From a virus, in IMG/VR virus record IMGVR_UViG_3300035180_003587, positions 1-20,472 of that record: DNA of 20,472 nucleotides; one strand, 5' to 3'. The translations under genes were made by a program, and so were the position numbers. Every line of letters begins with the position of its first letter. Position 1 is the first letter of the stretch. The notes beneath the pieces were generated by a model that was given only the letters and a program-made list of their open reading frames with translations, ran no database searches and was not told where the DNA came from. Shown here piece by piece: positions 5,123-16,612 of the stretch.

Positions 5123-7050
5123 TGGCGACCAAGAAGAAGACGACGCGGGCGCCGGCCAAGAAGCCGACGCCAAGGAAGACTCGCGCCCGCAAGCCGGTGC
5201 CCAAGAAGAAGGCCCGCGCTGCCCGCAAGCCGCCGCCGGCGCCGCTCGACCCGCACTTCGCGAAGGCGCTCAAGTACTGCGAAGACGTCGTCGCCGGGCG
5301 GATCCCCGCCGGGCGCCTGGCTATCGCAGCCTGCAAGCGCCAGCTCGCCGACCTCGAGCGCGGCCGCGCCGGCTGGGAGTTCGAGTTCCGCGCGGACCTC
5401 GGCGGCCGCATCTGCCGCCTGATCGAGCTGCTGCCCCACATCGAGGGCCCGTTGGCGGGCCAGCTGATCAAGCTTGAGCCGTGGCAGTGCTTCATCCTCA
5501 CCACGGTGTTCGGGTGGGTGGAGAAGGGCACCAACAAGCGGCGCTTCCGCCGCAGCACCGTCTTCGTGCCTCGAGGGAACGGCAAGAGCGCGCTCACCTC
5601 GGGCGTCGGCATCTACGGCACGGGTGCAGATGGGGAGGGCGGTGCCCAGGTCCACAGCGCGGCCACCACCCGCGCGCAGGCACAGATCGTCTTCGGCATC
5701 GCGCAGAAGATGCTGCGCAAGGCTCCCGAGCTCCGCGAGCGCCTCGGCTTCGAGGTGCCGAAGAACGCCATCGTCCAGGCGAGCTCGGCCAGCAGCTTCG
5801 GTGCGCTCTCCCGCGAGGCGGACAACCTCGACGGGCTCAACACGCACCTCGCGCTCGTCGACGAGATTCACGCGCACAAGACGAGGGAGATCTACGACGT
5901 CATCGAGACGTCCACCGGCAAGCGCCAGCGCTCGCTGCTCTGGGTGATCTCCACCGCTGGGTTCGACTCCTCGGGGATCGGCTTCGAGGTCTACACGGAC
6001 GCGAAGAAGGTGCTGCTCGGCGAGGCCACCGACGAAGCGCTCTTCGCGGCCATCTGGGAGGCGGACCCGGAGGACGACTGGACGCTCGAGTCCACCTGGC
6101 GGAAGGCGAACCCGAACTGGGGCATCTCGGTGATGCCCGACGTCATCGCCCAGCTCGCCGCCAAGGCGATGCGCACCGCGTCCGCGGTGAGCGGGTTCGT
6201 CACCAAGCACCTCAATCGGTGGACGACCGCCGACCAGAGCGCCTTCGACATCCGCGCATGGGACAAGTGCGCGGACGAGCACCTCACGCCCAGCGAGCTG
6301 ACCGCGGCCGATGCGTTTGTGGGGGTCGACCTGGCCAGCAAGATCGACATCGCCGCCAAGGTGTTACTCTTTCGACGGGACGAGGAGAAGGCTCCTCAGC
6401 CGCCGTCTCACTCGACAGTCGCCGAAGTGGGGCGGGTTCTCGGCGCACCGCCCGAGCCCCTCGATGAGTTCGCGGAGCAGCCGCCCGCAGCGGCGGAGCA
6501 GCAGAAGCACGCCACGGAGCCGCACTACTACCTCTTCCTGTCGGCATATCTCCCCGAGGACGCAGTAACCGACGGGCGAAATGCGAGCTACCACGGATGG
6601 GAACTGGACGGGCACCTCACCACGACGGCCGGCGACGTCCTCGACTTCGCGGCCGTACGCTCCGACATCCTCGAGGACGTCGCTGCCTACCGCGTGCTCG
6701 AGGTTGCGTACGACCCTTGGCAGGCGACGCAGCTCGCGCAGGAGCTCGAGGCGCAGGGCATCCTCACCGTGGAGGTCCGCCCCAACGTCCAGAACTTCTC
6801 GCCTGCGATGCAGGAGCTGGACGCGGCGATGCGCTCGGGTCGGCTGCACCACGACGGGAACCCGGTGCTGCGGTGGATGGTCGCGAACACCGTCTGCCAC
6901 CGCGATGCGAAGGACAACGTCTACCCGCGCAAGCTGAAGCCCGAGAACAAGATCGACGGCGTGGTGGCGGCTTTGATGGCGCTCGGTCGCGCGATGCTCG
7001 CCGAGACCGGCTCGCCATACGAAACGAGAGGAGTGCGGACCCTTGGCTGA
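5122..7050 (+). CDS. terL: Terminase large subunit (Terminase_1 family)
   Basis: 642 residues, somewhat longer than the usual 500-580. ATG overlaps the small-subunit stop. ATPase: Walker A is VPRGNGK155-S156, Walker B LALVD247-E248 followed by IHAHK, and a coupling motif region near LLWVISTAG. Nuclease: D403 in VGVDLASKIDIA and D612 in KIDGVVAALMALGRA are the expected RNase H-like metal ligands. Role: the motor that cleaves concatemeric phage DNA and pumps it into the prohead through the portal. Two oddities: residues 1-42 are a Lys/Ala/Pro-rich, histone-H1-like tail; and about residues 419-466 form a Pro/Glu/Gln-rich insertion inside the nuclease domain, with less GC-rich codons nearby, including a rare TTA at 6364. 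Core motifs are intact, so the enzyme is probably active. Confidence 0.97.
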   Translation: MATKKKTTRAPAKKPTPRKTRARKPVPKKKARAARKPPPAPLDPHFAKALKYCEDVVAGRIPAGRLAIAACKRQLADLERGRAGWEFEFRADLGGRICRLIELLPHIEGPLAGQLIKLEPWQCFILTTVFGWVEKGTNKRRFRRSTVFVPRGNGKSALTSGVGIYGTGADGEGGAQVHSAATTRAQAQIVFGIAQKMLRKAPELRERLGFEVPKNAIVQASSASSFGALSREADNLDGLNTHLALVDEIHAHKTREIYDVIETSTGKRQRSLLWVISTAGFDSSGIGFEVYTDAKKVLLGEATDEALFAAIWEADPEDDWTLESTWRKANPNWGISVMPDVIAQLAAKAMRTASAVSGFVTKHLNRWTTADQSAFDIRAWDKCADEHLTPSELTAADAFVGVDLASKIDIAAKVLLFRRDEEKAPQPPSHSTVAEVGRVLGAPPEPLDEFAEQPPAAAEQQKHATEPHYYLFLSAYLPEDAVTDGRNASYHGWELDGHLTTTAGDVLDFAAVRSDILEDVAAYRVLEVAYDPWQATQLAQELEAQGILTVEVRPNVQNFSPAMQELDAAMRSGRLHHDGNPVLRWMVANTVCHRDAKDNVYPRKLKPENKIDGVVAALMALGRAMLAETGSPYETRGVRTLG

Positions 7051-8653
7051 GACCTCGACCAGCCTCTGGGCGCGCCTCACCGCGCCGTTCCGCCGGCGTG
7101 CTCCGCAGGCCGCGGTGACGTCCCGCGACCAGCCGTGGCTCTACTACCAGTACCTCGCGCACGAGCAGGCTGCGGGTGTCACCGTCACGATGGACAGCGC
7201 GCTGCATCTCTCCGTGGTCTGGGGCTGCGTGGTGGCGCTCTCCAACGCGCTCTCCACGGCGCAATGGAACGTCTGGCAGATCGACGACAACGGCCACCGC
7301 ATCGCCTTGCCGAAGGACCCGCTGAACTACGTGCTCAACGTCCGGCCGAACCCGGACATGACGCCGATCAGCCTCAAGGAAACGTTGATCTTCGCGGTGC
7401 TCACCTGGGGCAACGGGTACGCGGAGATCGTGCGCTCGGCGAGCGGTCGCGTCGTGGAGCTCTGGCCGCTGCTGCCCCACAAGATGTTCGTGCGGAGGGA
7501 CCCGCCCGAGCTCGGCGGCGCGCTCTTCTACGAGTACTCGCAGCAGAACGGTGGTGTGACGCGGCTCGAAGCCGAGGACGTCTACCACCTGCGCGGGCCC
7601 GGCATCTCCGGGCTGCTCGGCGACAACCTGGTCGCGCGCGCGGCGAAGACGATGGCCCTCGCGGCCGCGCAGGAGCGATTCGCCTCGACGTACTACGGGA
7701 ACAACACCGCGATCGGCGGCGTGCTCGAGGTGCCGCGCGTCCTCAGCGACGAAGCGTACGAGCGGCTCAAGAAGAGCTGGGAGGACGTGCACAAGGGTCC
7801 GAGCAAGGCGCACAAGATCGCCATCCTCGAGAGCGGGGTGAAGTTCACCGCGACGGCGAACAACCCCGTCGAGTCCCAGGCCGTCGAGTCGCGCACGCTG
7901 CAGATCGAGGAGGTGTGCCGCTGGTACGGCGTGCCGCCTCACAAGATCCAGCACCTCGCGCGCGCCACGTTCAGCAACATCGAGCACCTCGCGATCGAGT
8001 TCGTCCGCGACGGCGTGACCCCGTGGGCGCGCCGGATGGAGCAGGAGGCCGACTACAAGCTGCTGTCCGCGCGGGGGCCGACGCGCCGCACGCTGCTCGA
8101 CCTGGCGCCGCTGACCCAGGGCGACTTCCAGAGCCGCGCGACCGGCTACAGCATCATGAGGAACATCGGCGCCTACTCGGCGAACGACATCCTCCACCTC
8201 GAGGGCAAGAACGGCATCGGGCCCGCCGGCGACGTGCGGATCGTCGGGGTGAACATGCAGCCGCTCGAGCGGCTCCTCGGGCCGCCCCAGCTGCCCGCGC
8301 CCGGGAGCGGCGGCGGCGAGCCTCCTGTTGTGGACGCCGAGGAATCGGGCGCGCAGGCCCGGCTCCGCAGCATCGCGGTGGAGCACTACGCGCTGGTCTT
8401 CGCGCGGTACGTCCGCCGCCTGGACAACCGTCGCGCCGACATGGAGCGGGCGGGCTGCGCGCCGGCGGAGGTCGCCGAGAACCTCAAGGCGGAGCGCGAG
8501 CGCGCCGGGCTGCAGCTCGTGCAGGAGAACCGCGAGGTCACCGACCAGCTCGGGTTGCACCCGCAGTTCGTGATGGATGCGGTGGAGGCGGTGAACGCAG
8601 GGACCGACCCGCGCGCGGCCGCGCAGGCGCTGCTCGAAAGGAACACCCGATGA
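7043..8653 (+). CDS. Portal protein, HK97 type
   Basis: 536 residues from TTG, overlapping the large-terminase end by 8 bases, with GAGAGGAG (7026-7033) 9 bases upstream. The sequence follows the HK97 portal family: early ALHLSVVWGCVVALSNALS, clip/wing region LNVRPNPDMTP, GNGYAEIVRS, VYHLRGPGISGLLG, then stem and crown segments GVLEVPRVLSDEAYERLKK, EEVCRWYGVPPHKI and RMEQEADYKLL. The dodecameric portal forms the vertex ring through which DNA enters the prohead and where the neck attaches. Residues from about 430 on form an extra helical extension with many charged residues (HYALVFARYVRRLDNRRADME), past the usual 400-430 residue core. Such extensions occur in longer portals and may form the barrel. 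Confidence 0.95.
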   Translation: MAETSTSLWARLTAPFRRRAPQAAVTSRDQPWLYYQYLAHEQAAGVTVTMDSALHLSVVWGCVVALSNALSTAQWNVWQIDDNGHRIALPKDPLNYVLNVRPNPDMTPISLKETLIFAVLTWGNGYAEIVRSASGRVVELWPLLPHKMFVRRDPPELGGALFYEYSQQNGGVTRLEAEDVYHLRGPGISGLLGDNLVARAAKTMALAAAQERFASTYYGNNTAIGGVLEVPRVLSDEAYERLKKSWEDVHKGPSKAHKIAILESGVKFTATANNPVESQAVESRTLQIEEVCRWYGVPPHKIQHLARATFSNIEHLAIEFVRDGVTPWARRMEQEADYKLLSARGPTRRTLLDLAPLTQGDFQSRATGYSIMRNIGAYSANDILHLEGKNGIGPAGDVRIVGVNMQPLERLLGPPQLPAPGSGGGEPPVVDAEESGAQARLRSIAVEHYALVFARYVRRLDNRRADMERAGCAPAEVAENLKAERERAGLQLVQENREVTDQLGLHPQFVMDAVEAVNAGTDPRAAAQALLERNTR

Positions 8654-9333
8654 AGACGCGGATGCAGGCGCTGCTCGAGTCGTTCAAGGCGGGCGCGGGG
8701 AAGACGCGCTCCTTCCGCGCCGACGTCTCGGGCGACTCGGCGAAGCTGTACCTCTACGACATCATCGGCCAGGACTGGTTCGGCGGCGTTGGCCCGCAGG
8801 ACGTGGTGAAGGCGCTCGATGCCGCGGGGGGGAAGCCGCTCGACATCTTCATCAACTCGCCCGGCGGCGATGTCTTCGACGGGGTGGCGATCCACTCGCT
8901 GCTCAAGCGGTACGGCAACACGAAGACGATGCACGTCGATGGCCTCGCCGCGAGCGCGGCAAGCTTCCTGCTGATGGCTGGCGACACGATCGTGATGGCG
9001 CCCGCGGCCCAGATCATGATCCACGACGCCTGGGCCTACTCCTCTGGGAACGCGGCGGAGCTGCGCGCGACGGCGGACCTGCTCGACCAGACGAGCAAGA
9101 CGCTCTGCGACGCCTACGCGGCGCGCACCAAGCAAGACCCGAAGGACGTCGCCGCGTGGATGGCGGCCGAAACCTGGATGACCTCCGACGTGGCTCTCGC
9201 GCGCGGCTTCTGCGACGCGGTCGAGCCGGGCCAGGACGACGACAACGACGGTGACGGGGCCAAGGCTCGCGCCACTAAGCTGCTCGCCGAGCTCGGCGCG
9301 CGGTTGAAGAGTTCGCGGGCCAGCCCGCAGTAG
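8650..9333 (+). CDS. ClpP-type (S14) prohead protease
   Basis: 227 residues; ATG overlaps the portal stop (ATGA). The S14 pattern is complete: INSPGGDVFDG oxyanion loop, catalytic S102 in GLAAS102AAS, and H125 in IMIH125DAW. The third residue is likely an Asp in the TWMTSDVALARGFCDAV region. Family role: digests scaffold or the capsid delta domain in the immature head so the shell can mature and fill with DNA. The capsid protein downstream has a coiled-coil N-terminus and no separate scaffold gene is present, so cleavage of that N-terminus is expected. The C-terminus is an acidic tract (DDDNDGDG) followed by a basic helix. The acidic tail is unusual and might mediate self-control or capsid association. 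Confidence 0.95.
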   Translation: MKTRMQALLESFKAGAGKTRSFRADVSGDSAKLYLYDIIGQDWFGGVGPQDVVKALDAAGGKPLDIFINSPGGDVFDGVAIHSLLKRYGNTKTMHVDGLAASAASFLLMAGDTIVMAPAAQIMIHDAWAYSSGNAAELRATADLLDQTSKTLCDAYAARTKQDPKDVAAWMAAETWMTSDVALARGFCDAVEPGQDDDNDGDGAKARATKLLAELGARLKSSRASPQ

Positions 9334-9451: not shown

Positions 9452-10792
9452 ATGGACAAGAAGATCCAGGAGCTCGAGGCACTGAAGGAGAAGCTGCACT
9501 CCGACCTGCAGGCGCTGCTCGCCGCCGACGAGGTCGACGAGGCCAAGGTCGCCGGCATCAAGGCGCAGTTCGAGAAGGCCGACGCCGACATCGAGAAGCG
9601 CACCAAGATGCTCGCGATGGCCGACGAGCTGGAGGCCAAGATCCCGAAGGCCACCCGCAAGGTGCAGGAGGACGGCGCCCTCGAGGTGCGCGGCGGCGCC
9701 CGCGTCGCCGGCGGCGACACCAACGGCGCGCGGCCCGGGGCGTTCGGCTACCGCCACCTCGGCGAGTACTCCCAGTCGATCATCAAGGCCGGCAAGAACC
9801 CGCGCGCCGCGCTGATCGACATCGACCCGCGCCTCGACAAGCTCTACAACGCCTCGCTGACGAGCTGGGGCTCGGAGGGCATCGGCTCGGACGGCGGCTA
9901 CGCGGTGCCGCCGGACTTCCGGGCGGACATCCTCAAGAAGCTGCAGGGCGAGGACGCGCTGCTCGGCTACACCCAGCAGATCAACACCGGGTCCAACTCG
10001 GTGACGCTGCCGATCGACGAGGTCACGCCCTGGGACACCGGCTCTGGCGTCCTGACCTACTGGGCGGGCGAGGCGGCGGCGATCACGCAGTCCAAGCCCG
10101 CGCTGCAGAACACCACCATCCGCGCCGAGAAGCTCACGGCGCTGGTGCCGGTCGGTGACGAGCTGCTCAGCGACGCCCCGGCGCTCACCTCGTGGCTCAT
10201 GGGGAAGGCCCTCGACAAGCTGAACTACAAGGTCAACGACGCCATCGTGAACGGCACCGGCGTCGGCATGCCCTCGGGTATCCTCCAGGCCGGCGGCCTG
10301 GTCACCCAACCGGCGGAAGGCGGGCAGACGGCGGGCACGGTGGTCTTCAACAACGTGACCAAGATGTTCGGCCGCATGCGCGACGTCCAGCGCCGCAACG
10401 CCATCTGGCTCGCGAACCAGGACATCGAGCCGCAGCTGCAGGCGATGGTGGTCCCGGGCTCGAGCCCCTCGATCCCGGCGTACCTCCCCGCCGGCGGCCT
10501 CAGCACGCAGAAGTACGCGATGCTGATGGGCCGGCCGATCGTCTACACGGAGGCCACCAAGGCCATCGGCACCGTGGGCGACCTGATCCTCTGCGACATG
10601 GACACCTACCTCACGGTGGTGAAGGGCGGCGGCGTCCGCTCCGACATGTCGATCCACCTCTGGTTCGACCAGGACGTGACCGCCTTCCGCTGGATCCTCC
10701 GCATCGGCGGCCAGGGCCTCTGGAAGACCACCATCACCCGGCCGGGCGCCAAGCAGGTCTACGGCTCGTTCATCGCGCTGGCGGCTCGCTAA
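9452..10792 (+). CDS. Major capsid protein, HK97 fold
   Basis: 446 residues; ATG after a strong GAGGAGG site, as expected for the most abundant virion protein. Residues 1 to about 75 are a charged heptad-rich coiled coil (KKIQELEALKEKLHSDL ... DIEKR), the delta/scaffold domain typical of HK97 gp5. A flexible Gly/Ala/Arg region follows, then the mature shell domain: GGYAVPPDFRADIL (N-arm), TLPIDEVTPWDTGS, ITQSKPALQNTTIRAEKLTALVPVGDELL (E-loop and spine helix area), MPSGILQAGG, LMGRPIVYTE, and a beta-rich C-terminus (VTAFRWILRIGGQGLW). It builds the icosahedral head after protease removal of the N-terminal domain (family knowledge). The cleavage site cannot be placed exactly; it should lie about residues 80-135. 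Confidence 0.95.
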   Translation: MDKKIQELEALKEKLHSDLQALLAADEVDEAKVAGIKAQFEKADADIEKRTKMLAMADELEAKIPKATRKVQEDGALEVRGGARVAGGDTNGARPGAFGYRHLGEYSQSIIKAGKNPRAALIDIDPRLDKLYNASLTSWGSEGIGSDGGYAVPPDFRADILKKLQGEDALLGYTQQINTGSNSVTLPIDEVTPWDTGSGVLTYWAGEAAAITQSKPALQNTTIRAEKLTALVPVGDELLSDAPALTSWLMGKALDKLNYKVNDAIVNGTGVGMPSGILQAGGLVTQPAEGGQTAGTVVFNNVTKMFGRMRDVQRRNAIWLANQDIEPQLQAMVVPGSSPSIPAYLPAGGLSTQKYAMLMGRPIVYTEATKAIGTVGDLILCDMDTYLTVVKGGGVRSDMSIHLWFDQDVTAFRWILRIGGQGLWKTTITRPGAKQVYGSFIALAAR

Positions 10793-12035: not shown

Positions 12036-12512
12036 ATGCTCACCGTCCAGAGCAGCGTCGTCGGCGACGACGCGGTGAAGGCGCAGTTCGTCGAGCTCGG
12101 CTCCGCGGTGCGCCAGCGGGTCCGCGCCGCGCTCCGAGGCCTCGGGCGCGAGGCGCAGGCGGTGGCGCAGAGCCGCGCCCCGTGGAAGACCGGCGCGCTG
12201 ATCGACTCCATCAAAGTCCGCCTCAGCAACGGCGACGGCAAGTCGCTGACGATGACCGTCTCGCCCACCGGCAAGAGGAACTTCGTCGCCCGCCTCATGG
12301 AGTTCGGCGTGGTGGCGCACGGCTGGGCCAACAACAAGGCGCTCCGCGGGAACAAGCGGTCGATGGCCGCCATCGTCCGCCAGCGCCGCGCCGCCGGTCT
12401 CTACCGCATCGAGCCCCGCCCGTTCATGGCGGCGGCCGAGGCGGTCGTCCGCTCCAAGCTCGACGCCGCGTTGGGCGCCGCGCTCGACGCAGCCGCGCAG
12501 GAGGCGAGCTGA
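12036..12512 (+). CDS. Neck/tail protein of the HK97 gp10 family
   Basis: 158 residues; ATG immediately follows the previous stop, with GGTGAGGG upstream at 12024-12031. The family pattern is clear: basic amphipathic helix VRQRVRAALRGLGREAQAVAQSRAP, then KTGALIDSIKV, a beta hairpin, LMEFGVVAHG, and RPFMAAAEAVVRSKLDAAL at the C-terminus. These proteins (gp10 of HK97; related to lambda gpZ-type tail completion) sit at the head-tail junction and finish the tail end. The region with NNKALRGNKRSMAAIVRQRRAAG is a basic insertion between the 'EFG' and 'PF' motifs. Its TGA overlaps the next ATG. Confidence 0.9.
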   Translation: MLTVQSSVVGDDAVKAQFVELGSAVRQRVRAALRGLGREAQAVAQSRAPWKTGALIDSIKVRLSNGDGKSLTMTVSPTGKRNFVARLMEFGVVAHGWANNKALRGNKRSMAAIVRQRRAAGLYRIEPRPFMAAAEAVVRSKLDAALGAALDAAAQEAS

Positions 12513-13077: not shown

Positions 13078-14022
13078 ATGCGTCTCGGAGGACTCGGAGC
13101 CATCTACGCTGCGCCGTCGGGGGCGAACCCCACGCCCATCCCCATCGCCATCGCCAAGGGCGCGACGATCGGCTTCAAGCAGGAGAAGAAGGCGCTGCGC
13201 GGGCAGTGGACGCTGCCGATCGACGTCTTCGCCGGAGCCATCGACGGGTCGCTGAAGTTCCAGAACTGCGACTTCAAGGCAAGCACGCTGCAGATGGTGC
13301 TCGCCGGCAGCACGCTCACCGCAAACGCGACGCAGCTCGCGGCCACGGGCGAGGCCGTGGCGGTGCCCGGCTCCCCGTACCAGGTCGCCGTCGCCAACTC
13401 GGCCACCTTCGTCGAGGATGGCGGGGTGCTCGACCTGACCGCTGGCAAGTGGCTGGCCCGCGCGACGGCCTACCCGCCGCCCACGGGCCAGTACTGCGTC
13501 TCGGCTCCGTGCACCTTTTCGGGCACGTCGACGCTGACCACTCTCACCGTCACCGCGGTGGCCTCGGGCACGCTGAGCCTCGGCTCGGTGCTCGTCGGCG
13601 GCACGGCCGGCACCACGATCACCGCGTTCCTCACCGGCACCGGCGGCGTGGGCACCTACACCATCAGCGTCTCGCAGTCGGCGACGTTCACGTCGGCGAC
13701 GGCGGCCTACACGTTCGCGGCCGCTGACACGCTCCACAACATGAGCGTGGTCTACCGCTACTCGAGCACGCTCTCCGGGTCGCAGACGCTCACCTACAAC
13801 AACCAGGTGGTGGGCGCGTCGACGGGCTACCTGGTGCGCGTCTACTCGAACTTCAGCGTGAACGGGGTCATCCGGCCGCTCGGGTACGAGTTCCCCAACG
13901 TCCACTTCAGCGACCTCGAGCACGTCTTCAAGGTGGACGACTGGGCGGAGCAGAGCCTGAGCGGCATGATCGCTCAGGACACGGCCTCGCTGCTCGGCCT
14001 CAAGCACTACACGGGCGAGTAA
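13078..14022 (+). CDS. Major tail tube protein with inserted beta domain
   Basis: 314 residues; ATG after CAAGGAG with 8-base spacing. The outer parts look like a tail tube subunit: [20 protein letters not shown] near residues 60-80, [23 protein letters not shown], then [37 protein letters not shown]. Tube subunits stack as hexamer rings around the tape measure. Between about residues 136 and 212 lies a Thr/Gly/Ser/Val-rich block ([42 protein letters not shown]), a motif seen in many phage surface proteins, so an extra domain would decorate the tail exterior (inference). This explains the length, longer than the usual 150-250. Function assignment rests on position before the G/T chaperones and tape measure. 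Confidence 0.85.
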
Positions 14023-14024
14023 CG

Positions 14025-14357
14025 ATGGCCACTATCACGCTGGGAGGCCGCGAGCTGGACGTGAAGCCCGCGACGCTCGGGTTCCTGAAGCGCGAGATCT
14101 TGCCCTGGAAGCGCGACACGCCGAAGCGCGTTCCGGGCACCGAGCTCGACATCGGCGGCATCGCGGACCTCGAGGAGGAGATCATCAACTGGAGGGTCCG
14201 CGGCCTGCTCCTCTACCTCGGCCACAACACCGGCGTGGACGCCACCTGGATCGAGGACCACGTGGTCGACGTCGAGGCCGCGGTGACGAAGGTCATCGCG
14301 GCCGCGGGCCAGGAGCCGGCACCCAAGGCCACGCCGGGGGAAGCTCCGCGCCCGTAG
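14025..14357 (+). CDS. Tail assembly chaperone G
   Basis: 110 residues, starting 2 bases after the tail tube stop. The sequence ATITLGGRELDVKPATLGFLKREILPW is typical of small tail chaperones, followed by acidic helical text (DIGGIADLEEEIINWRVRGLLLYL; DHVVDVEAAVTKVIAAAG) and a Pro/Ala-rich tail (EPAPKATPGEAPRP). Family role: lambda gpG coats the tape measure protein during tail assembly and is not in the virion. The gene ends within a frameshift signal (14336-14395), so a fraction of ribosomes should go on in the -1 frame and make a G-T fusion of 212 residues. Confidence 0.9.
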   Translation: MATITLGGRELDVKPATLGFLKREILPWKRDTPKRVPGTELDIGGIADLEEEIINWRVRGLLLYLGHNTGVDATWIEDHVVDVEAAVTKVIAAAGQEPAPKATPGEAPRP

Positions 14358-14395
14358 AGGACGAGGCCGTCCTGCTGCGACGGATCTACGGGCGC
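14336..14395 (+). promoter_or_regulatory. Programmed -1 ribosomal frameshift signal
   Basis: In the zero frame the codons read CCG GGG GAA, giving the heptamer G-GGG-GAA (14336-14342), on which the glycine tRNA can re-pair perfectly after slipping back one base. Five bases later a perfect 11-bp stem begins: GCGCCCGTAGA (14348-14358) pairs with TCTACGGGCGC (14385-14395), and it includes the zero-frame stop TAG (14355-14357). A second 5-bp stem, GGACG/CGTCC (14359-14363/14368-14372, loop AGGC), stacks directly inside. The -1 frame is open far beyond, without a start codon. This is the slip site, spacer and structure arrangement known from lambda-type tail chaperones; efficiency cannot be read. 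Confidence 0.85.
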
Positions 14396-14662
14396 ATCAT
14401 CGACCGGACGGGGTGGTCGTTCCCGACGGTCGACGCCCTTCGCCTCGACGAGATGCACGACCTCTTCGACCACTGGGCCGAGGAGCCGCCGCTCTCGGTG
14501 GTGGTGCGCGCGCTCGCCGGATGGGAGCCGCAGACGCCGGAGAACGACCCGGCGACGCCGAAGGTGGTCACGCAAGAGGAGTGGGACCGGATGGTCGGTG
14601 CCGCGCAGGTCGGGGCGAAGGTCGGTGCACAGAGGCTCGCGCAGGCGCAGCACGGGAGGTAG
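14339..14662 (+). CDS. T part of the G-T tail chaperone, -1 frame
   Basis: After a slip at GGG the -1 frame continues 107 residues from GSSAPVEDEAV to the TAG at 14660-14662. Between the G stop and the first ATG (14453) there is no ATG, GTG or TTG in this frame, yet the text is plainly protein-like and family-typical: LLRRIYGRIIDRTGWSFPTV, LRLDEMHDLFDHWAEEPP. Annotation from ATG 14453 alone would remove about 38 residues of this domain. In the fusion, the T domain binds tail tube subunits while G binds the tape measure (lambda model). The C-terminus is Ala/Gln/Arg-rich. Tape-measure translation begins four bases after its stop, with its ribosome site GGGAGG (14654-14659) inside this gene. Confidence 0.85.
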   Translation, partial: GSSAPVEDEAVLLRRIYGRIIDRTGWSFPTVDALRLDEMHDLFDHWAEEPPLSVVVRALAGWEPQTPENDPATPKVVTQEEWDRMVGAAQVGAKVGAQRLAQAQHGR

Positions 14663-14665
14663 CCG

Positions 14666-16612
14666 GTGGGTCAACCGATGAAGATCCAGGTTGAGGTCGA
14701 CGCCTCGGGCCTCGTCTCGGGTCTGAAGGTGGCCACGACCGGCGTCGACGCCGCCGCCACGGCGATGCGCACGGGCCTCAAGGCCACCGGCGACGCGGCC
14801 ACCGCGGCGGGCAAGTCGCACGAGGGGCTGCTCGGCACGCTGCGCGCGTTCAAGGCCGAGCAGGTCCAGCAGGGCAGGGTAGCGAAGTTCTACGCGTCCG
14901 AGCTCACCGGCATCATCCCGGCGAGCGCGGGCGCGTCGAACGCGCTGCGCGGGGTGCTCGGCGCCGGCGTCGAGCTCGCGGCCGGCGGCGGAGTACTTGC
15001 CGTCGGATTTGAGCTCGCGAAGGTCGGCATCGAGGCCTTCAACGAGAAGACCGAGGAGAGCCAGGCGCGAGCGGCCGAGCTGCGCGCCGTCTACGTGAAG
15101 GCCACCGACGAGATCGACAAGTCCTTCCGCGCCGTGCGGCAGAGCCTCCAGGGAGAGCTCTCGGCGGCGGGCGCGGCTTGGCAGGGCGACGTCAACAAGA
15201 CGAAGGACACGCTCAAGGAACTCCAGAACGAGATCGCCGAGAAGACCGCCAAGGCCGGGTCGAGCGTCTGGGCGCAGATCAAGGGCGGGCTGCAGCAGAT
15301 CGTGGAGATCGGCGGCGGTTCCGGCAAGGGCGTTAATACAGGCGAGGACGAAGAGATCGCGCAGATGCAGAAGAAGCAGCTCGCCGAGGTAAAGGCGCTG
15401 GAGGACCGGAAGGTCGAGGCCAAGAAGCTCGCCGGCGAGGAACAGAAGAAGCTGGCCCGTTCCACCGCGCTCGAGGTCGAAAGCATCGAGGCGAAAAGCG
15501 CGGGCAAGATCGCCGAGATCCGCGCGGCGCTGCAGACGCGCCTGCACCAGCTCGAGGAGCAGAAGGACAAGCTCGACCCGGACGGATCCGGGGCGAACCG
15601 GGGCAAGCTCGAGGTGGCCGCGCGGAGGGAGACGGACGAGCAGATCCGCCGTGTCCGCGTCGATGAGGAGCAAAAGACCAACGAGACGATCCTCTCGCTG
15701 CAGAAGCCCTTCCTTTCCGAGTACGGCGCAGCCATCCGCGAGAGCGAGCTGCGCATCGCCTCGCTCGAGGAGGCGATCCGGCGCACGAAGGACCAGAAGG
15801 AGATCGACAACCTGCGCACGCAAATTGATGCGCAGGAGGACCTGGAGGGCGCTGCCTTCGACCGCCGCATCGCGCTCGAGCGGAAGAAGGAGGCCGAACT
15901 CGCCGCGGAACGCGAGGCCAACGTCCGCAAGAACATCGACAAGGCCATCGCGATGGAGGGAGAGGCGATGCGCCGGTGGGAGGTCTCCAACAAGAACTCC
16001 ATCGCGGTGGTGTCGGCCGCGGCCGGGTCGCTGGTGCACGGGTTCAGCGCTGGCATCCAGGGCATGATCACCGGCACCGAGTCCCTCGGCCAAGCGATGG
16101 CCGACCTCGCCACCGGGATGCTGGAGGCAGTGCTCGGCGCGCTCGAGCAGATCGCCGCCGAGTGGGTCACCCAGAAGGCGCTCGAGGTAATCCTCGGCAA
16201 GGCGGCCGCGGCGTCCAACGCCCAGGGCAACATCGCTGTAGCGGCGACCGGCGCTGCGGCATCGCAGGCTGCGATCCCCATCGTGGGCCCGGCGCTGGCG
16301 CTCGGCGCGGCCTCGGCGATGATCGGCGCGCTCGAAGGGATGGCGCTGCCGCTGCTCTCCGCCCGCGGCGGATTCGACATCGGCGCCGGCGTCAACCCGA
16401 TCGTCCAACTCCATGAAAAGGAGATGGTGCTCCCGGCTCGCATCGCGGAGCCCCTGCGCCAGCAACTGTCCGGCGGCGGTGGGCGTGACGGCGGAGTCCA
16501 CCTGCACATCCACGGCGACGTCTACGACGCTGGCGGCGTCGAGGCCCTGCCCAGCAACCCGAAGTTCCTGCGCGGGATGCGCGAGGCACGCCGGAACGGG
16601 AAGGCCTTGTGA
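14666..16612 (+). CDS. Tape measure protein
   Basis: 648 residues from GTG, 6 bases after GGGAGG; ATG 14678 in the same frame is possible but 18 bases away. N-terminus MKIQVEVDASGLVSGLKVATTGVDAAATAM is typical of tape measures. The centre (about residues 125-440) is a long Lys/Glu/Ala-rich coiled coil (LEDRKVEAKKLAGEEQKKLARS; LEEQKDKLD; RKKEAELAAEREANVRKN). Two hydrophobic Gly/Ala stretches, near residues 90-125 and about 525-570 (AAIPIVGPALALGAASAMIGALEG), fit the membrane-active parts that help DNA pass the envelope. The C-terminus has HLHIHGDVYDAGGVEAL. The coiled coil sets tail length; at about 0.15 nm per residue the tail would be at most near 100 nm. It follows the chaperone genes as expected. 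Confidence 0.95.
   Translation: MGQPMKIQVEVDASGLVSGLKVATTGVDAAATAMRTGLKATGDAATAAGKSHEGLLGTLRAFKAEQVQQGRVAKFYASELTGIIPASAGASNALRGVLGAGVELAAGGGVLAVGFELAKVGIEAFNEKTEESQARAAELRAVYVKATDEIDKSFRAVRQSLQGELSAAGAAWQGDVNKTKDTLKELQNEIAEKTAKAGSSVWAQIKGGLQQIVEIGGGSGKGVNTGEDEEIAQMQKKQLAEVKALEDRKVEAKKLAGEEQKKLARSTALEVESIEAKSAGKIAEIRAALQTRLHQLEEQKDKLDPDGSGANRGKLEVAARRETDEQIRRVRVDEEQKTNETILSLQKPFLSEYGAAIRESELRIASLEEAIRRTKDQKEIDNLRTQIDAQEDLEGAAFDRRIALERKKEAELAAEREANVRKNIDKAIAMEGEAMRRWEVSNKNSIAVVSAAAGSLVHGFSAGIQGMITGTESLGQAMADLATGMLEAVLGALEQIAAEWVTQKALEVILGKAAAASNAQGNIAVAATGAAASQAAIPIVGPALALGAASAMIGALEGMALPLLSARGGFDIGAGVNPIVQLHEKEMVLPARIAEPLRQQLSGGGGRDGGVHLHIHGDVYDAGGVEALPSNPKFLRGMREARRNGKAL

Follow-up and report, generated by a model that had tools for sequence, protein, structure and literature searches.

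A short cassette in the tail module of an uncultured siphophage is very probably a −1 programmed ribosomal frameshift signal, placed in a tail assembly chaperone gene of the lambda G/G-T type. It combines an in-frame GGGGGAA slip site with a hairpin that encloses the zero-frame stop codon. An earlier sequence-only reading had proposed such a cassette with a stimulatory stem as its central claim, and the comparison of relatives strongly supports it.

Two overlapping frames upstream of the tape-measure gene

The window, i.e. the whole stretch of DNA analyzed, is a 20,472-base IMG/VR virus record with a G+C content of 70%, and it encodes a siphophage head–tail module. Portal (7043-8653), capsid (9452-10792, with relatives annotated as major capsid proteins) and tail completion (12036-12512) genes are followed by a gene at 13078..14022 (+), which is presumed to encode the major tail protein from its position and its match to phrog_8234 (E 3e-15, no function given). 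Its homologue in locus L002 lies directly upstream of the L002 G gene, and its homologue in Brevundimonas phage Polewnik lies upstream of the tape-measure gene. In the window's protein an additional segment (residues 146-229; window 13513-13764) matches phrog_21413 and the tail-fibre family phrog_38233; the L002 homologue is shorter by ~70 residues. The tape measure protein gene occupies 14666..16612 (+; phrog_2854 tape measure, E 1e-18). Two overlapping frames, G and T, lie between it and the presumed major tail gene, giving the order tail-type gene, G, T, tape measure.

G, the open reading frame at 14025..14357 (+), is the putative zero-frame tail assembly chaperone of 110 aa. Its C-terminus reads ...TPGEAPRP, and its stop codon, TAG at 14355..14357 (+), can be read directly within the 5′ arm of the stem. 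T is in the −1 frame (14339..14662, +) and runs for 107 codons from GGA to a TAG at 14660-14662. By its codon-position composition T is a coding frame, the G+C content at positions 1/2/3 being 0.75/0.47/0.92 vs 0.71/0.45/0.91 in the tape-measure gene, which bears out the earlier description of 107 coding-like residues. It had also been noted that T has no start codon before 14453. Reading the frame back to the previous −1-frame stop (13967) confirmed this: neither ATG, GTG nor TTG occurs until the ATG at 14453, 117 nt past the first base of the heptamer, and conventional initiation of T is therefore impossible.

T might still be made by internal initiation, if GGGGGAA(G) acted as the Shine-Dalgarno element of a −1-frame start that is weak or non-standard, or by reinitiation past the TAG. 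In an E. coli reporter, G-rich tetramers plus a G gave apparent low-level initiation at AUA (PMC4066793), and a ribosome terminating at 14357 adjoins the T frame. Against this, the nearest ATG, GTG or TTG is as remote as just described and at least 66 nt away in 13 loci, the available start codons come too late to include the conserved parts of T (PV...YG), and the invariant in-frame slip geometry and the stem would be left unexplained. We consider this route very improbable. A T start codon of its own in homologues had been named as an observation that would count against frameshifting; in the 13 loci the first −1-frame start lies 66-123 nt downstream of the heptamer, and none is closer than 66 nt on its 3′ side.

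The assignment of G and T as chaperones is inferred from gene order and frame relation. The AlphaFold model of G (pLDDT 86) has an N-terminal beta hairpin and helices. Its best match among 350,542 PDB chains is the HK97 tail assembly chaperone 2ob9, at a non-significant E of 6.9, and several chaperones are among its weak matches in BFVD (best E 0.097). The window's G matched no Pfam or PHROG family, a fold search with T gave no significant match, and neither protein significantly matched any named chaperone family in the sequence and fold searches. The G of 9/15 relatives matches phrog_7947 (no function given).

The slip site and the hairpin

The slippery heptamer G GGG GAA lies at 14336..14342 (+), read in the zero frame as (CC)G GGG GAA, and is followed by a 5-nt spacer, GCTCC (14343..14347, +), so that both elements are present as first described. 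The motif is in frame in 17/17 relatives, and the gap between heptamer and CCCGTAG is 8 nt in all of them. The + strand of the window contains just two GGGGGAA heptamers. The second, at 8828 in a protease-like gene, looks like chance because the −1 frame there is open for only 54 codons.

With its five G and two A, the heptamer departs from the canonical X XXY YYZ form, and re-pairing in the A site needs a G-U pair. It does correspond to the 'fivetwo' motif of PRFect, with G GGG GAA in the zero frame before the G stop and an open −1 frame. PRFect gives the 'fivetwo' motif GGGGGAA for all of about a thousand such SEA-PHAGES sites and accounts for the second tRNA by a G-U pair (PMC10885494). Corynephage phi16 has also been proposed to use this heptamer in its tail-assembly genes (PMC5506516). 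GGGGGAA is an established tail-chaperone slip motif, and its description as atypical in the sequence-only reading has to be withdrawn. A Shine-Dalgarno stimulator was sought upstream of the slip site, and none is conserved among the relatives.

Downstream of the spacer, GCGCCCGTAGA (14348..14358, +), which contains the zero-frame TAG, is perfectly complementary to TCTACGGGCGC (14385..14395, +), which encodes I-Y-G-R in T. The perfect 11-bp stem enclosing the stop thus stands as originally read. A contiguous inner stem had also been claimed, and its arms, GGACG (14359..14363, +) and CGTCC (14368..14372, +), are indeed complementary. On folding of the region, as the earlier reading had suggested, the outer stem is present in both the minimum-energy and the centroid structures (−28.7 kcal/mol, z −2.6), whereas the inner stem appears in the centroid only. 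Since the inner 5-bp stem is missing from the minimum-energy fold and alone does no better than shuffled loops (p=0.26), the case for a double stacked stem is plausible, though weaker than that for the outer stem.

The stem stands where a stimulator would be expected. Structure-stimulated −1 frameshifting uses a structure 5-8 nt downstream of the slip site (PMC4066793), and the window combines a 5-nt spacer with a stable stem of −28.7 kcal/mol. In simulations that kept the dinucleotide content, 0.044% of sequences had a perfect 11-bp stem beginning 3-10 nt past a fixed point, and codon shuffles that preserve the T protein match the window stem in 0.7% of cases (p=0.007). Perfect 11-bp inverted repeats as such are expected about once per window of this kind (2 observed vs a simulated mean of 1.1), which leaves room for the repeat being a transcription terminator or other DNA element, or for the two frames reflecting a sequencing error or a decaying gene. 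Yet the repeat has no downstream T run and lies within a coding frame, both frames are coding-like, and 17 independent sequences repeat the frame relation, making such explanations extremely improbable. It is the stem's position, rather than the inverted repeat itself, that is unlikely by chance. A search of 14200-14700 with Rfam covariance models gave no match up to E 1.

In the proposed mechanism, most ribosomes would read GGG GAA GCT CCG CGC CCG TAG and stop within the hairpin, yielding G (110 aa). With GGG in the P site and GAA in the A site, the base of the hairpin would be 5 nt downstream, near the mRNA entry of the ribosome, where it would hinder further advance. A minority of ribosomes would re-pair one base back, with tRNA-Gly on GGG and tRNA-Glu on GGA through a middle G-U pair, pass the TAG and read the −1 frame to 14662, yielding a G-T fusion of ~212 aa. 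The P-G-G-S junction put forward earlier would need amending: tandem slippage would give ...PGESSAPV, and PGGSSAPV would require slippage of the P-site tRNA ahead of GAA decoding. In the lambda model, the tape measure is bound by G and the major tail protein by T (PMC5009743). By analogy, G may coat the tape measure protein in this phage, and a few G-T molecules may recruit the major tail protein.

Conservation of the cassette in relatives

The same cassette (GGGGGAA, 8 nt, CCCGTAG...CTACGGG) recurs at the G/T junction of 15 other viral contigs and two bacterial MAG contigs. In each true relative, the zero-frame stop falls at the same codon, 6 codons on, and a tape-measure-like gene follows. 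L002 was reached via its capsid protein (65% identical); its G/T junction, GGGGGAA, 5 nt and GAGCCCGTAGA/TCTACGGGCTC, has the window geometry, a C-G stem pair being replaced by A-T. Further viral-contig members came from a DNA pattern in which heptamer and stem core were fixed, and the contigs of two MAGs, one Anaeromyxobacter and one Dependentiae, from a genome scan; since contigs are not assigned to MAGs with certainty, these names are no firm guide to hosts. A tape-measure profile collected relatives independently of the cassette and returned GGGGGAA chaperone genes of many kinds, with L069, L070, L072, L113 and L128 carrying the cassette; the nine-sequence tape-measure alignment was too diverse as a search query. 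A pattern with a free 3′ arm found nine independent true chaperone loci, 9/9 with a complementary 3′ arm (L113 with one mismatch). Among them was a new close relative, L177, whose T is 41% identical to the window's across the alignment. Searching with the T protein alone returned just L177 and the L052 group (with copies), all of which have the cassette. The loci found without use of the 3′ arm (the window, L002, L050, L051, L052, L055, L059, L067, L113, L128 and L177) all keep a complementary 3′ arm.

Used as single-protein queries, G and T found no relatives among viral contigs. Against phage isolates, T, like the T of L152, found none and G gave chance-level matches only; no close isolate relative was found. 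When a model of the cassette was run against 195 genomes from the phylum to which the Anaeromyxobacter MAG belongs, and against 39 further capsid-related or isolate loci, no additional copy was detected. L060, L149, L150, L153 and most matches of the free-3′-arm pattern were judged to be chance or another system and stand outside the counts.

The proteins of the relatives are highly diverged. G and T are 14-44% identical among relatives and, compared with the window's across alignments, 14-32% for G and 25-42% for T. Invariance is confined to residues whose codons lie in the slip site and the stem (G105, E106 and P110 in G; G1, P5, V6 and G18 in T), a result that is partly built in, most rows being pattern-fetched, with the stem Gly exempt in the 11 loci whose selection did not use the 3′ arm. 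In 11/11 of these loci the stem Gly codon is GGG, a minority codon that makes up 14-38% of Gly codons (product 6e-8 if the loci are independent).

Pairing is likewise maintained. In alignment A3, with 17 distinct sequences, stem cells are paired in 90.9% of cases vs 19-47% when the arms are slid; most of the 17 rows were pattern-fetched and 7/11 pairs fixed by the pattern, which makes those pairs weakly informative there. The earlier reading had proposed comparing homologues for the heptamer and for compensatory stem changes, the lack of which would have spoken against it. Besides the invariably in-frame heptamer, such changes are present, with both sides altered at three stem pairs across the 17 rows. 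L128 has both sides changed in two adjacent pairs, including C-G for G-C beside the core, L154 has both sides changed at the outermost pair, and the second stem pair occurs as A-U, C-G and G-C among the rows. The covariation score is 0.124 vs 0.079 in shuffled alignments and is reached by 6/500 shuffles, relatedness being ignored. In L177 the stem Tyr is replaced by Cys (TGC) and the pair is kept as U-G; L113 has Phe at the stem Tyr and one mismatch. The two outermost pairs are unpaired in 6/17 and 8/17 rows. A clear inner stem is generally absent from 13-nt loops, while a second stem usually forms in longer ones (22-34 nt), individually at p<0.05 only in L055, L067, L154 and L177.

These data bear on whether the stem is a by-product of protein conservation, without RNA function, and GGGGGAA alone drives frameshifting. 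The protein motifs concerned are Pro-Val and Tyr-Gly in T, and Pro-Gly-Glu and Ser/Arg-Pro in G. The invariant stem core does overlap the PV and YG codons, and most sampled GGGGGAA chaperone genes manage without a strong stem. This explanation is nevertheless improbable: it does not account for the uniform use of the minority codon GGG for the stem Gly, the retained U-G pair in L177 or the two-sided changes in L128 and L154. Moreover, T proteins lacking the cassette stem read VIVHV, LYAHL or LYSFL where stem carriers read IYG(R/L), so that YG is not a general requirement of the protein. A stem maintained as RNA in a frameshift signal remains the preferred reading.

The tape-measure-collected loci together with the window contain 27 G/T-type GGGGGAA sites, and 23 non-redundant chaperone genes were analyzed, the window's and 22 gathered by way of the tape-measure protein. 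The stem beats codon shuffles at p<0.05 in 6/23, namely the window, L069, L070, L106, L123 and L125; the L128 and L113 stems are not significant, and significance at single loci is modest. Combined by Fisher's method, the stem test gives p=2e-4 over all 23 loci; when those with the GCCCGTAG stem are left out, the remaining 18 give p=0.008. In L106, L123, L125, L130 and L102, sequence-unrelated hairpins stand 4-6 nt past GGGGGAA, just upstream of the tape-measure gene, as in GCCTCAGCCGG/CTGGCTGAGGC and GCCCCAGC/GCTGGGGC. Because the L106, L123 and L125 hairpins are unrelated and the 18 loci retain p=0.008, hairpins at this position probably arose more than once. Judging from the sampled genes, a hairpin is not required with GGGGGAA. 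The earlier suggestion that a strong structure compensates for the slip site is unsupported, as most of these genes have no strong hairpin.

Two copies of a similar cassette, GGGGGAAACCCCGACCCCGTAG plus a nested hairpin, lie ~2.4 kb apart in a Corynebacterium phage lineage and a C. variabile genome (L056 at 4271 and 6684, reverse strand coordinates; L151, L054, L068, L187-L195), a set likewise kept outside the relative counts. One copy is at the end of the major capsid gene (phrog_10), the other at the end of a tail-type gene. In each, the zero frame terminates in SGETPTP and the −1 extension encodes the same 26-aa peptide type, GNPDPV(A/G)LRP(R/H)KGLHP.., perhaps a C-terminal tag common to both proteins and produced by frameshifting. 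More broadly, and as a tentative idea that we regard as rather unlikely, the cassette (GGGGGAA, 8 nt, CCCGTAG hairpin with the stop in its stem) could be a compact portable frameshift module kept as a unit in different structural genes, from the tail chaperones of the window's group to these capsid and tail-type gene ends; the stop within the stem might then couple termination to opening of the hairpin.

Relation to known frameshift systems

The lambda heptamer is G GGA AAG. The window, unlike lambda, has GGGGGAA with a strong conserved hairpin enclosing the zero-frame stop, and neither its G nor its T is significantly related in sequence to a named chaperone family. Shared with lambda G/G-T are the overlapping frames before the tape-measure gene, the −1 slip near the end of G, a T without its own start and a fusion expected as a minority product (PMC5009743).

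The SEA-PHAGES sites of PRFect agree with the window in slip motif, gene kind, −1 direction, G-U argument and high G+C content; they come from actinobacteriophage isolates, whereas the window group is uncultured, and in the available part of that paper the motif is described without a conserved downstream hairpin, unlike the present cassette (PMC10885494). Corynephage phi16 likewise combines GGGGGAA with a predicted downstream RNA structure in tail assembly genes, but the structure proposed there is an H-type pseudoknot with an internal Shine-Dalgarno sequence (GAGG), while the window has a hairpin, either simple or nested, and its group lacks a conserved SD-like sequence upstream (PMC5506516). 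IS911 and IS3 also have a slip site followed by a structure generally starting 5-8 nt downstream (PMC4066793); the window case differs in being a phage structural gene, in having its stop inside the stem and in a slip site that is not X XXZ ZZN. Separately, Brevundimonas phage vB_BpoS-Polewnik (ON529863.1; L179:4666) probably has a −1 frameshift, missing from its annotation, at a GGGGGAG that lies between two hypothetical-protein genes ahead of the tape-measure gene.

While this kind of frameshift is already known, the stop-in-stem hairpin conserved in an uncultured phage group appears undescribed; our literature search, with subscription journals mostly outside its coverage, found no description of it. 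A near-constant RNA element across highly diverged phage proteins makes the rules of slip site and stem readable from natural variation. The cassette makes it testable whether the little-studied GGGGGAA motif needs a stimulator in some phages and not in others, and whether a stop inside the stem is relevant, and it allows split chaperone genes to be annotated in uncultured phages.
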